Below, one piece after another: positions 39,624-45,304 of a DNA stretch of 64,000 bases (the stretch's first letter is position 1; each line of letters begins with the position of its first letter). The position numbers and the translations under genes are program-made. Under the pieces are notes generated by a model. It made no database searches. It saw only the letters and a list, made by a program, of their open reading frames with translations, and was not told the DNA's origin. The DNA is from Chloroflexus sp. Y-396-1 (GTDB lineage Bacteria; Chloroflexota; Chloroflexia; Chloroflexales; Chloroflexaceae): positions 248,001 through 312,000 of the forward strand of contig NZ_KI911784.1 of assembly GCF_000516515.1 (NCBI RefSeq), written 5' to 3'.

Positions 39624-40826
39624 CTACGGTCGCGCTGCCAGTGTCACCGTCACTTCAAGCTGCTCACTACCACGTTGAACCGTCAGTACGACCTGATCAC
39701 CAACCTTCAATAAGTCAATCATACCGACCAATTGATCGCTTGAGAAGATCGGTGACCCGTTACAAGCGATGATAATATCACCTCCGATTCGCACCGGCAA
39801 ACCACGATAGGTTGCGCTGGTTGACCCACCCCGTAGACCGGCTGCGGCTGCCGGACTCCCTTCCTGAACTGTGCCAACGAGGACACCCCGATTGATAGCA
39901 AGCCCAAACCGATTCGCAAACAAGGTGTCAACCGTCGTCATGCTGATTCCCAGCCACGGATGATCGTAACGTCCTTGCTTGATTAACGCTGGTACCACCC
40001 GAGCCACGGTTTGCGCCGGAACGGCATAGCCAACCCCTTCAAAATCACGTCCGCCGAGACTAACCGCAATCGCTGTATTGACCCCAATCACTTCACCACG
40101 CAGATTGAGGAGCGGGCCGCCCGAATTACCCGGATTAATTGCAGCATCGGTCTGAATAACGTTCGGAATACTGAAGCTACCAACACTGCGCGCCGGCCCA
40201 CGCAATGTACGCCCCAATCCGCTGATCACGCCAACCGTAAGCGTATTTCGTTCGCCAAAGGGGCTGCCGATAGCTACTGCGGTCTGCCCTACCTGTAACT
40301 CTTCACTGTTCCCTAACGGTAACGGGCGCACTCCTGCTGGCAGACTGTTCACCTTGATGACGGCAAGATCACTATCGGGATCGCTTCCTACCAGATCGGC
40401 AATAACAGTCGCTCCGTTTGCGAAACGTACCTGTATCTGAAGTGCACCCGCGATCACGTGGTGATTCGTCACGATATGCCCCTGATCATCGTACAGAAAA
40501 CCCGAACCCTGGCCACTTGGGCCATCGGGAGTAATTGGTGGATGACCAGGAGGAAGACTAGCACTCTGATCAACCACTACATCCAGGCTGACGACGGCCG
40601 GATTGACACGCCGGTAGAGATCAACCAACCGTCGCTCAGACTCACTTAGTTCAGTTTCCACCACAATCGAAGTATTTCCAACCTCTATCGGCAGCAGCGG
40701 AGCATCGGTTGGCCGAACCGGTGGCGACGTCGGAGTCGGCGCTTCATTACTGGTGACTACCGTCAGATTGGCACGTGCACAACCGGTGAAGACAAAAAGG
40801 AGCAATATAAGGAGAAACCGGCGCAT
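39624..40826 (-). CDS. HtrA/DegP-like serine protease lipoprotein with PDZ domain
   Basis: The protein has 400 residues. A short signal ends in the lipobox FTGC (Cys16), so it is membrane-tethered outside the cell membrane. Residues 21-60 are a Pro/Thr linker. The protease has H123 (VTNHHVI), D153 (DSDLAVI) and S235 (NPGNSGGPLL). Residues 295-395 are a PDZ domain. HtrA-type proteases degrade misfolded envelope proteins. The ATG at 40826 is preceded by GGAG. The lipid anchor in place of the usual membrane helix is notable. Confidence 0.93.
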   Translation of the reverse strand: MRRFLLILLLFVFTGCARANLTVVTSNEAPTPTSPPVRPTDAPLLPIEVGNTSIVVETELSESERRLVDLYRRVNPAVVSLDVVVDQSASLPPGHPPITPDGPSGQGSGFLYDDQGHIVTNHHVIAGALQIQVRFANGATVIADLVGSDPDSDLAVIKVNSLPAGVRPLPLGNSEELQVGQTAVAIGSPFGERNTLTVGVISGLGRTLRGPARSVGSFSIPNVIQTDAAINPGNSGGPLLNLRGEVIGVNTAIAVSLGGRDFEGVGYAVPAQTVARVVPALIKQGRYDHPWLGISMTTVDTLFANRFGLAINRGVLVGTVQEGSPAAAAGLRGGSTSATYRGLPVRIGGDIIIACNGSPIFSSDQLVGMIDLLKVGDQVVLTVQRGSEQLEVTVTLAARP

Positions 40827-42007: not shown

Positions 42008-43021
42008 TCAACGCGAACGAGACAACGTCTTCGACAGGCACCGCACATCCCACCAGATACGCGGCAGACGAGCAATCTTCTCGCGTAGCGGGAGATACGC
42101 ACGTCGGGTATACGTGTCGTAGCGATTTTGCTCTATTTTATCGAGGATACCGCGGTAGACACGTGCGGCGGCCGCGACCGCCAGACGCACCTCTGGAGGC
42201 AACAACGCAATCCCGGGCCAGCTCTCGTCGTACAACTGATGAGCACGTGCCACTTGGAACTTCATCAAAGCAATAAACCGCTCATCGTACACGCGAGCCA
42301 GAATATCATCAGCAGTCAGACCAAAGCGTGCCAGCTCATCTTCGGGCAAATATACCCGTTGGCGTTCTGCATCCTCGCCGATGTCGCGCAAAATATTGGT
42401 AAGCTGCAACGCAACACCGAGCTTGATTGCATAAGGTTGCGCACCAGGTGCTGCACCGGTAATGCCAATCACCAGTAAGCCCACCACCGACGCAACACGA
42501 TAGCAATAGAGCCAGAGATCGGCAAACGTGGCATAGCGCGAAATCGTGAGATCCATTGCGACCCCTGCCAACAATTCGTCGATCAGACTCGGCGAAAGGT
42601 TATACCGTTGGCAGGTATCGGCCCAGGCCAACAATACTGGATGTGAGGTATCAAACCGTGGCCGACGTGCAATCCGAATCCATTCGGCCAACGCTCGCGC
42701 CGGATCAGACTCAGCCATGTCAACAGTATCGTCGGTAGTGCGACAAAAGGCGTACAATGCCCGCACAGCACGACGCTGCGCCAGCGGCAGAAATTGGGTA
42801 CTGAAAAAGAAACTCTTTGAATGACGACGAATGATTTGATCACATATCGCGTAAGCCTCGGCTAACGTTCGCGTTGGCGGTGGTGGCAGTTCATCGGTAT
42901 GCGATGAGACAGGAAGATCGCTGAGATGAAGGAGTTGGGCAAGCTGCTCATCGGCTGGCAGCGCCTGACTTACCGGCAAGCCATTTCCTCGCGTAAAGAT
43001 CGAGAGCGAATTCAGCGACAC
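42008..43021 (-). CDS. crtB: Phytoene synthase
   Basis: The protein has 337 residues. The start is GTG at 43021, directly after AGGAGTGCA. It is in the squalene/phytoene synthase family, with D97-D98-T-V-D101 as the first Asp-rich motif and LTNILRDIGED as the second. The first 50 residues are an unusual Pro/Ala/Leu-rich extension before AYAICDQIIRRHSKSF. It joins two geranylgeranyl diphosphates to make phytoene, the first committed carotenoid step. A squalene-synthase-type reaction cannot be fully excluded. The upstream carH-like gene is on the same strand, 126 bp away, which fits light-regulated carotenoid synthesis. Confidence 0.88.
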   Translation of the reverse strand: MSLNSLSIFTRGNGLPVSQALPADEQLAQLLHLSDLPVSSHTDELPPPPTRTLAEAYAICDQIIRRHSKSFFFSTQFLPLAQRRAVRALYAFCRTTDDTVDMAESDPARALAEWIRIARRPRFDTSHPVLLAWADTCQRYNLSPSLIDELLAGVAMDLTISRYATFADLWLYCYRVASVVGLLVIGITGAAPGAQPYAIKLGVALQLTNILRDIGEDAERQRVYLPEDELARFGLTADDILARVYDERFIALMKFQVARAHQLYDESWPGIALLPPEVRLAVAAAARVYRGILDKIEQNRYDTYTRRAYLPLREKIARLPRIWWDVRCLSKTLSRSR

Positions 43022-43057: not shown

Positions 43058-43086
43058 AATATACGCAATATTGGGTCTACCGGCAA
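43058..43086 (-). promoter_or_regulatory. Possible crtB promoter
   Basis: TTGCCG (43081-43086) and TATATT (43058-43063) are separated by 17 bp on the minus strand, about 37 nt before the GTG at 43021. The 12-bp inverted repeat at 43095-43131 lies just upstream. Confidence 0.5.
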
Positions 43087-43147: not shown

Positions 43148-44095
43148 TTAGCGACTGCGACTCAGGAGTGACGCAACGTTTTCGACTGCTTCTTGGGCAT
43201 CACGACCTAGAAATGTTCCCGGCATCTTATGCGTCAAGATTGGATTTAGATTGAATGCGCGGCCGCCATAACCGAAGAGTGGCGTAGGCGGTGGCAATTG
43301 CTGAATTGCTCGCCCGATTTCGAGCAACTGGGTAGCAGTTTCGGTTGTAGAAGCAGACAAACACACTAAATCAGGCTGAATGTGGCGCACCGCATCAAGC
43401 AGGTCCTTCACCGGCACTTCTGGCCCAAGATAGATCACCTGCCAGCCGTGACGAACAAAAAAGACAGACAACATCAGAGCGCCCAAGTCGTGTTGTTCAC
43501 TCGGTGCGCAGCCAACCAGAATTAATCCACGTCCTTCCGTAACATTGTAGGTATTGAAGAGACTCGACAATTTACGCCGAATGAACTGCGTTGCAAAATG
43601 TTCTGCTGTCACCGAAATTCGCCCGGCGTGCCACTGCTCGCCGATTTCAACCATCGCTGGCTGGATTAACTTCAAAAAGACATCTTCCAGCGGGTAAAGC
43701 GCAAATGCTTCACCCAGGATCTGCTCGGCGCGGGTTGCATCAAAATCGGTTAACGCAGTGATAAGCCGAGTCTGCATCCGTTCCCACGTATGTGGCTCGG
43801 TATCGACCGCGGTGTTTAGCCACGAAAGACCGGTGTCACTACCCTCCATCATCAGGGCAATGGCTTGACTGATAGTCAGACCCTCGGCTGTACGATCACG
43901 CAGCCAGCGAATGGTCGCAATATCGCGCTCTGAGTAGAGGCGATGACCACCTTCCGTTCGTTGAGGGCGAGGTACACCGTAACGACGTTCCCAAGCCCGG
44001 AAGGTGTCTGCTGGCACACCCGTCTCCTGTGCGACAGCCTTAGTGTTGTATCGTGGCTTGTCTGAAAATTGGGAGAGAAAATGATGCGGCGCCAT
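43148..44095 (-). CDS. CarH/LitR-type MerR regulator with B12-binding photosensor domain
   Basis: The protein has 315 residues from the ATG at 44095 (a TTG at 44134 is less likely). Residues 14-84 are a MerR helix-turn-helix (RYNTKAVAQETG, then FRAWERRYG). The C-terminal half is a cobalamin-binding domain: W155-x9-E165-H166, the signature of CarH-type adenosylcobalamin photoreceptors, and E200-Q-H202-D-L-G with the cobalt-binding His at 202. CarH proteins tetramerise in the dark on DNA and fall off when light cleaves the cofactor. A light-derepressed role for crtB is inferred from this and from the gene's position just upstream. Its own promoter carries 11-bp repeats. Confidence 0.93.
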   Translation of the reverse strand: MAPHHFLSQFSDKPRYNTKAVAQETGVPADTFRAWERRYGVPRPQRTEGGHRLYSERDIATIRWLRDRTAEGLTISQAIALMMEGSDTGLSWLNTAVDTEPHTWERMQTRLITALTDFDATRAEQILGEAFALYPLEDVFLKLIQPAMVEIGEQWHAGRISVTAEHFATQFIRRKLSSLFNTYNVTEGRGLILVGCAPSEQHDLGALMLSVFFVRHGWQVIYLGPEVPVKDLLDAVRHIQPDLVCLSASTTETATQLLEIGRAIQQLPPPTPLFGYGGRAFNLNPILTHKMPGTFLGRDAQEAVENVASLLSRSR

Positions 44096-44246
44096 AGTTC
44101 CGCGACCCTTCCCGGTGCTCACAAGGTGAGACAATTGTCTACGAGAGTTTACACCTTAGCTCTTCTGTACCAGCATTCACGAAGACCTTAGCAGTGATCG
44201 CAACCTTGTAACGACCGACCGTGAAGCGTGGTACAATGTCATCAAT

Positions 44247-44275
44247 ATTTTATCACGCTGCACAATCGCTGTCAA
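44247..44275 (-). promoter_or_regulatory. Near-consensus promoter of the carH-like gene
   Basis: On the minus strand, TTGACA (44270-44275) and TAAAAT (44247-44252) are separated by exactly 17 bp. The transcript would start near 44240, giving a leader of about 145 nt. Confidence 0.8.
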
Positions 44276-44287
44276 TAAATTGCACAA
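44259..44287 (-). promoter_or_regulatory. Three tandem 11-bp repeats (candidate CarH operator)
   Basis: Minus-strand heptamers TTGTGCA (44281-44287), ATTGACA (44270-44276) and TTGTGCA (44259-44265) start exactly 11 bp apart. The middle one contains the -35 TTGACA. Three head-to-tail 11-bp repeats are the arrangement used by CarH tetramers in Thermus, so autoregulation is likely. Confidence 0.65.
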
Positions 44288-44329: not shown

Positions 44330-45304
44330 ATGCGAGCACTTATTACCGGAATTAACGGCTTTGTTGGGGGTCATCTGGCCGAACATTTGCTCGCCGATGG
44401 ACGTTGGGAAGTGTGGGGACTATCACGCTCACCACACTTAACTCTGCCACATCTGATCGGCAAGGTAGAGCTTGTCCAGGCCGATCTAGCAGATGCTGAA
44501 GCAACCATGCGTGCACTGGTACGGGTACGCCCCAATGTTATCTTTCACCTTGCCGGTCAGCCATTTGTTCCTGAGTCGTTTCGTGACCCGGCCGGAACGC
44601 TGGCTGCCAATACCCTGGGAGCATTGCACATTTTTCTTACTCTGATCGAATACCGTATGGCGACGCGCGTGCTAGTGATCGGTACAAATGAGGAATACGG
44701 CAAGATTGATCCTGACGATTTGCCGATTGATGAAGATACCCCCCTACGGCCAACGAGCCCGTATGGGGTCAGTAAAGCAGCTCAGAGCCTTCTCGCCTTG
44801 CAATACTACTACAGTCACGGGCTTGATCTGGTGCGTGTCCGTCCCTTTACGCACATTGGCCCCCGCCAGAACGAACGATTTGTCACCGCTGCCTTCGCCC
44901 GCCAGATCGCACGCATCGAGTTAGGGTTACAACCACCTGTCGTGCAGGTAGGGAATCTGTCTGCCCAGCGTGATTTTACCGATGTACGAGATGTGGTAGC
45001 CGCCTATGCCTTACTGGCCGAACATGGTGAAAGTGGGATGGTATACAACGTCGGCTCCGGGCGTGCGGTGATGATTCGTGAAGTGCTCGATATGCTGCTG
45101 GCAGAATGTACTGTTCCGGTCGAGGTGCGATTGAACCCGGAACTGATGCGCCCCATTGATGTTCCGCTCGTCGTCTGTGATGCGTCTCGGCTGCGTATGC
45201 GCACTGGCTGGCAACCACACTACACGTTGGCCGAAACCCTGCACGATATTCTAACCTATTGGCGTGAGCGGGTACGCGCTGAAGTAACAGCTACCACCGG
45301 CTAA
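44330..45304 (+). CDS. NAD-dependent epimerase/dehydratase (GDP-sugar type)
   Basis: The protein has 324 residues. The Rossmann motif GINGFVGGHL starts at residue 7. GTNEEYGK near 116-122 and the YGVSK catalytic Tyr/Lys near 143-147 point to the extended SDR group that includes GDP-mannose 4,6-dehydratase and GDP-4-keto-6-deoxymannose reductase; the exact reaction is not certain. It would supply a deoxysugar nucleotide for surface glycans. The gene is divergent from carH. The next gene is a sugar-nucleotide pyrophosphorylase on the same strand, which supports a joint role. Confidence 0.87.
   Translation: MRALITGINGFVGGHLAEHLLADGRWEVWGLSRSPHLTLPHLIGKVELVQADLADAEATMRALVRVRPNVIFHLAGQPFVPESFRDPAGTLAANTLGALHIFLTLIEYRMATRVLVIGTNEEYGKIDPDDLPIDEDTPLRPTSPYGVSKAAQSLLALQYYYSHGLDLVRVRPFTHIGPRQNERFVTAAFARQIARIELGLQPPVVQVGNLSAQRDFTDVRDVVAAYALLAEHGESGMVYNVGSGRAVMIREVLDMLLAECTVPVEVRLNPELMRPIDVPLVVCDASRLRMRTGWQPHYTLAETLHDILTYWRERVRAEVTATTG

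Follow-up and report, generated by a model that had tools for sequence, protein, structure and literature searches.

Passages of two papers (PMC9304148, PMC8156234) describe the operators of characterised CarH proteins, which repress from direct repeats, as tandem 11-bp units of the form nnnnTnnACAn or nAnnTnnACAn, and operators with one or two direct repeats plus pseudo-repeats are also reported (PMC9304148). In Thermus, three DNA-binding domains of CarH sit on three units, one of which includes the -35 element; in Bacillus megaterium and the Myxococcales, tandem TnnACA units likewise lie over a housekeeping promoter, mostly as four or five units and often with pseudo-repeats, and some operators of Sorangiineae and Nannocystineae have three or four units (passages of PMC9304148 and PMC8156234). 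The protein itself is defined, in a passage of PMC8156234, by the Wx9EH motif, which caps the adenosyl group, and by the B12 motif ExHx2Gx41SxV/Tx22-27GG. For Chloroflexus, whose photosynthesis genes are scattered, the abstract of PMC9316378 calls the regulation unclear, and passages of this paper name CrtB as one of the proteins that do not follow the general growth-phase rise; they report no light test. A search of the open-licence literature, by title or start of the abstract, found no treatment of CarH or LitR in Chloroflexus or Chloroflexota among the matches listed, and such a search does not prove the novelty of a Chloroflexus CarH system. In PMC3870299 the apparent CarH matches are the string 'Ca_RhaEW', PMC7242693 mentions CarH once, and the passage found in PMC8004040 is a literature reference.

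The window studied here, the whole stretch of 64,000 nucleotides that was analysed, comes from Chloroflexus sp. Y-396-1, the genome of which is a single contig of 4.89 Mb. Upstream of a carH gene it contains a 44-bp segment that reads, on the minus strand, TAATTGTGCAA-TTTATTGACAG-CGATTGTGCAG-CG-TGATAAAAT (Table 1). Direct reading bears out the initial annotation in that the 7-mers TTGTGCA (starting at 44287), ATTGACA (44276) and TTGTGCA (44265) are spaced by exactly 11 bp, the tandem register of CarH operators. The annotation had also placed the -35 box of a near-consensus promoter in the middle unit, and an independent promoter search returned the same elements: TTGACA from 44275, a spacer of 17 bp and TAAAAT ending at 44247, with TG before the -10 box and 11 of 12 consensus matches. 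By consensus match, the overlap with the -35 and/or -10 element that marks a CarH operator is found for this predicted promoter. The annotation further counted a single difference in the middle unit, as expected for a -35 box under two constraints. This was wrong as stated: TTGTGCA and ATTGACA differ at four of seven positions. What the three units have in common is T-n-n-R-C-A (T at 44286, 44275 and 44264), with R being A in the middle unit and G in the outer ones. It is the middle unit that fits the published nnnnTnnACAn, and the outer units (TnnGCA) that deviate, being pseudo-repeats by the definition in a passage of PMC9304148. Since the operators described there include pseudo-repeats, such deviating units would be tolerated.

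Table 1. Features of the carH locus (positions in the window)
Feature	Position	Strand	Remark
Operator unit 1, TAATTGTGCAA	44280..44290	-	Core TGTGCA 44286-44281; read directly
Operator unit 2, TTTATTGACAG	44269..44279	-	Core TTGACA 44275-44270, equal to the -35 box
Operator unit 3, CGATTGTGCAG	44258..44268	-	Core TGTGCA 44264-44259; within the promoter spacer
Extended -10 box, TGATAAAAT	44247..44255	-	17 bp from the -35 box
carH, 315 aa	43148..44095	-	ORF; ATG at 44095
Phytoene synthase gene (crtB-type, SQS_PSY)	42008..43021	-	Pfam; next gene, same direction as carH
GDP-mannose 4,6-dehydratase-like gene, divergent	44330..45304	+	ORF, Pfam; start 40 bp from the array

The layout is that of Thermus thermophilus HB8 (carH-crtB region, pTT27), where GAGATGTACAA-AAGCTTGACAA-AACCTATACAT stands just before carH: both loci have three 11-bp units in tandem, with TTGACA in the central unit, and a CarH gene beside that of phytoene synthase. 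The two loci differ in the outer units, which in Thermus are TGTACA and TATACA (full TnnACA) whereas both are TGTGCA in the window, and in the phytoene synthase gene, which is divergent from carH in Thermus and downstream in the same direction here. In contrast to the four or five units usual in Bacillus megaterium and the Myxococcales, the window has three. A fourth unit was considered and rejected, for the neighbouring 11-mers in the window fail TnnRCA; of the four letters of the core, the upstream one has just the T and the A.

With at most three mismatches, the strict pattern TGTGCA-N5-TTGACA-N5-TGTGCA occurs once in the window, at the site itself and with no mismatch, and on average 0.06 times in a shuffled window (six of 100 shuffles have one). 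Three TnnRCA units at 11-bp spacing also occur once (shuffle mean 0.05; one occurrence in five of 100 shuffles). Because both patterns were derived from the site itself, these local odds alone are modest, and the case against chance lies in the conservation of the array in relatives rather than in them. Between window positions 40000 and 48000, no Rfam family reached its gathering score.

The carH product carries Pfam MerR_1, B12-binding_2 and B12-binding above the cut-off, with the MerR winged-helix domain at the N-terminus and the B12-binding domains at the C-terminus, and its best match among solved structures is T. thermophilus CarH (5c8d, E=2.2e-35). Among named records, the nearest carH genes belong to Chloroflexus, at 93-95% identity (e.g., C. 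islandicus, 93%). Within its own genome it is the only protein matched across both CarH domains, the other three matches being partial (23-32%). The Wx9EH motif is present, its three named residues aligning with Thermus positions 131 (W), 141 (E) and 142 (H); the equivalents of Thermus Trp131, His132, Glu141, His142 and His177 are kept in 36/36 rows of the family-1 orthologues introduced below, the window protein included, and in 23/23 rows of family f4. Counted by eye, the stretch that corresponds to the B12 motif reads EQHDLG, 41 residues, S-A-S, 27 residues and GG; the axial (lower-ligand) His is present, and the one mismatch is an S where V/T is expected. At the positions of Thermus R176 and D201, which we take to form the salt bridge of the head-to-tail dimer, the window protein has Q and E, and its oligomer may therefore differ. 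Some CarH proteins, such as that of Cystobacter, are dimers according to a passage of PMC9304148.

The ATG start of carH is favoured over a longer and less likely start at TTG 44134, because an invariant GGGAAGGG block precedes the ATG in all eight Chloroflexus-genus genomes. The carH leader is long (window 44093-44246, minus strand). Shortly after the -10 box it contains ACATTGTACCACGC, invariant in the same eight genomes, and it also contains CGTGGTAC, a distant partial complement of ACATTGTACCACGC, which could indicate a hairpin or a second binding site. A candidate hairpin of 10 pairs between ACATTGTACCACG and CGTGGTAC has, across the eight Chloroflexus-genus rows, five invariant pairs and four that are broken in one or two rows; since no pair shows a compensatory change, its conservation as a hairpin is unproven.

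At 20 of the 22 named Chloroflexales loci, the flank examined contains a crtB gene downstream of carH and in the same orientation, and in the window crtB is presumably co-transcribed with carH. The gap between the two genes contains a weak promoter-like site (window 43058-43086, minus strand, 9/12 matches), and crtB may therefore also own a promoter. On the other side, the GDP-mannose dehydratase-like gene is found upstream and on the opposite strand at 19 of the 22 loci, about 1 kb away at one of them; between the array and this gene in the window, no promoter-like site was found on the + strand.

Of the 82 genomes of the order, 79 gave a match at the threshold used, some by a B12 domain alone. 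Upstream regions were compared for 36 orthologues of family 1 (f1), 23 of f4, five of f3 and seven of f2, and for 17 paralogues. Left aside were genomes in which no full-length orthologue was found (e.g., G003, G004, G019 and G039), the orthologue L059, for which upstream sequence was lacking, and the f4 genomes G072 and G080; the 22 named loci, which largely duplicate records of the genome set, were kept out of the counts. Promoters were anchored on the -35 and -10 boxes alone and the positions 11 bp to either side were then inspected, so that the repeats play no part in the choice of site. The conservation in relatives that had been set beforehand as a check was found. In f1, TnnRCA occupies the unit 1 position in 36/36 promoters and the unit 3 position in 35/36; both sides are occupied in 35/36, with TGTGCA exactly in all 35, and the single exception is L080. 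The background rate of TnnRCA is 1.4% (364 of 25,329 positions). In an alignment of the f1 rows by their best match to the array, all 12 outer-unit positions are invariant in 35/35, as is the extended -10 box (TG-n-TA-n-n-n-T), and mean information over these 35 rows is 1.61 bits across the 28-bp array versus 0.13 upstream and 0.23 downstream. The flanks of the array are not conserved in f1. The outer TGTGCA units are thus fixed in the family though they are pseudo-repeats, and the Chloroflexaceae-type operator therefore looks like a local dialect.

Outside f1 the array is less regular. TnnRCA is present on both sides in 7/23 f4 promoters, nine of the other 16 having TGTGCA and then TGTGCG, and in 1/5 of f3 and 0/7 of f2. 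The CarH wing of f2 is changed as well, with His42 replaced by Gln in 6/7 and Leu44 by Ala or Ser in 7/7, a combination expected if CarH reads the array; the loss in f2 may be a single evolutionary event at most. In the Herpetosiphon-like f2, no array scoring at least 10.5 was found in 8.9-11 kb at four carH loci, and at three f2 sites that were read, a convincing gene stands behind none. The promoter described here was not found before the second, paralogous CarH (0/17 paralogues). Upstream of the second CarH of f4 (L096-L100), at a distance of some 350 bp, there is a separate run of about four 11-bp units. Arg or Gln replaces the capping His142 in 12 of the 17 paralogues, and some of them may therefore be B12-independent.

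We consider it highly probable that the 44-bp segment serves as operator and promoter for a carH-crtB transcription unit under autoregulation, repressed in the dark by CarH loaded with adenosylcobalamin (AdoCbl) and released in the light. This reading is built on the repeats and their register, the promoter match, the conservation, the protein family with its key residues, and the gene order; the binding of CarH, its oligomeric state, the repression and its release by light, and the co-transcription of the two genes would be as in the characterised homologues. Because relatives keep the repeats, the array itself is very probably the CarH site for dark repression, and the initial proposal of a CarH operator is supported, at the level of sequence comparison, by this conservation, by the CarH signature residues and by the three-unit layout of T. 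thermophilus over the -35 box. Without light, CarH carrying AdoCbl, and probably tetrameric, would engage the three 11-bp units with three of its DNA-binding domains; with the -35 box covered as one unit, RNA polymerase would be excluded from an otherwise strong extended -10 promoter. In the light, the Co-C bond of AdoCbl would be broken, CarH would come apart and leave the DNA, and carH and the phytoene synthase gene would be transcribed. As carH would repress its own promoter, the level of CarH could reset after dark. If this is true, an anoxygenic phototroph also senses light by vitamin B12, with an operator preserved across the family.

The array is not restricted to carH. With at most two mismatches, the strict pattern has five sites in the own genome versus none for the reversed-pattern control, and 148 versus one in the 82 genomes, where about 49 are carH promoters. 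The looser pattern, with TnnRCA outside and without mismatch, gives 94 matches in the 82 genomes at 11-bp spacing (control 4), 11 at 10 bp (control 2) and 15 at 12 bp (control 10); judged by their coordinates, 37 of these 94 precede carH or its paralogue and 57 remain. Loosened patterns are weak in the own genome, where the looser pattern gives 2 matches versus 1 in the control when exact and 12 versus 6 in the reversed control with one mismatch, and the strict pattern with three mismatches gives 11 versus 3; the own-genome evidence is clean only for the strict pattern at two mismatches or fewer. Since the looser own-genome patterns stand out so poorly, single sites away from carH rest on their recurrence before the same gene.

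The loci of 116 non-carH sites (84 + 32) were read, 114 of them with an ORF; 12 of the 99 strict non-carH sites were left out. At 77 of the 116, the ORF belongs to one of seven BLAST-linked groups, each common to at least four loci: MFS exporter (27), TetR (14), MarR (9), polyprenyl synthase (8), sigma-70 (8), [2Fe-2S]-ferredoxin-like (7) and 6-pyruvoyl-tetrahydropterin synthase (PTPS, 4), the identities being taken from Pfam for one representative of each group. GTP cyclohydrolase I (folE) occurs twice among the loci read, and a site without mismatch in G015, one of the 12 left out, is equal in sequence to both folE sites. In the eight Chloroflexus-genus genomes, the array precedes carH in eight, sigma-70 in eight, MFS in eight, the ferredoxin-like gene in seven and TetR in six.

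These sites bring up the question of whether the array belongs to a general regulator, for example a small MerR-like protein without a B12 domain, with CarH merely encoded downstream. The many non-carotenoid genes behind the array would fit such a reader, and the genome has five MerR_1 matches, of which one is CarH and the other four include proteins of 208 and 60 aa. By reading, however, two of these four are short HTH proteins, one is of resolvase type and one is a classical MerR of 137 aa; moreover, the layout equals that of the T. thermophilus carH promoter, the array is lost in f2, whose CarH wing has changed, and prenyl synthase, FolE and PTPS are targets that fit a light regulon. We therefore regard another reader as unlikely. 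Far less probable still is that no repressor is involved and that ordinary constraints of transcription alone preserve the repeats as parts of promoter and spacer: near-consensus promoter elements are indeed seen in the middle unit and the -10 box, but the 12 outer TGTGCA positions do not vary in the aligned family-1 promoters, and the excess of matches in the 82 genomes is found at 11 bp and not at 10 or 12 bp. To our knowledge, no promoter element demands TGTGCA 11 bp to each side of a -35 box. Classical MerR operators are inverted repeats in a promoter spacer of 19-20 bp. Activation from a palindrome in so overlong a spacer is scarcely credible here despite the MerR-type DNA-binding domain of the protein, as the spacer is 17 bp and the repeats are direct, the kind of site from which the CarH proteins characterised so far act as repressors (passages of PMC9304148 and PMC8156234).

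With CarH as the probable reader at its own promoter, the recurrence of the array suggests a wider CarH light regulon in Chloroflexales, in which CarH would also read the sites away from carH. The chances seem to us about even that CarH in this order is the head of a light regulon and not a local carotenoid switch, so that the array over the -35 box would control an exporter, regulators of the TetR, MarR and sigma-70 types, prenyl synthase and pterin genes, and a B12 photoreceptor would direct a sigma-factor cascade in a photosynthetic phylum. The repeated operator provides a concrete list of candidates for light regulation in Chloroflexus. In the own genome, an operator-like triple at G000:C1:4680880-4680907 (L118) precedes the gene of a 366-aa sigma-70 factor; this genome has five such genes that include region 3, this one among them, and orthologous sites are present in 8/8 Chloroflexus-genus genomes. 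Other triples stand before an MFS exporter gene (G000:C1 2035324, L117) and before a TetR gene followed by a HlyD-like ORF (G000:C1 791843, L119), both recurring in other genera, and before the gene of a small [2Fe-2S]-ferredoxin-like protein (G000:C1 2309937, L120). By reading, the promoters are TTGACA-17-TATAAT for MFS, TTGACA-17-TATATT for TetR and TTGACA-17-GAAAAT for sigma; at the ferredoxin-like site of this genome, a good -10 box was not found by reading.

Pterin genes are plausible members of a light regulon, because the light-induced targets of class II LitR (PplR/PmlR) in Pseudomonas include folE, along with an operon containing an SDR gene, in a passage of PMC9758184. Similarly, the array is present in some Chloroflexales at folE, at PTPS and, by reading, at one SDR gene. 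According to the same passage, the Pseudomonas proteins are controlled by a LOV photoreceptor (PMC9758184), whereas the Chloroflexus protein keeps the B12-capping residues. The SDR case is a site in G017 (L196) that precedes a short-chain dehydrogenase gene; inspection by eye shows a resemblance of this gene to the one immediately upstream of the L118 sigma gene.
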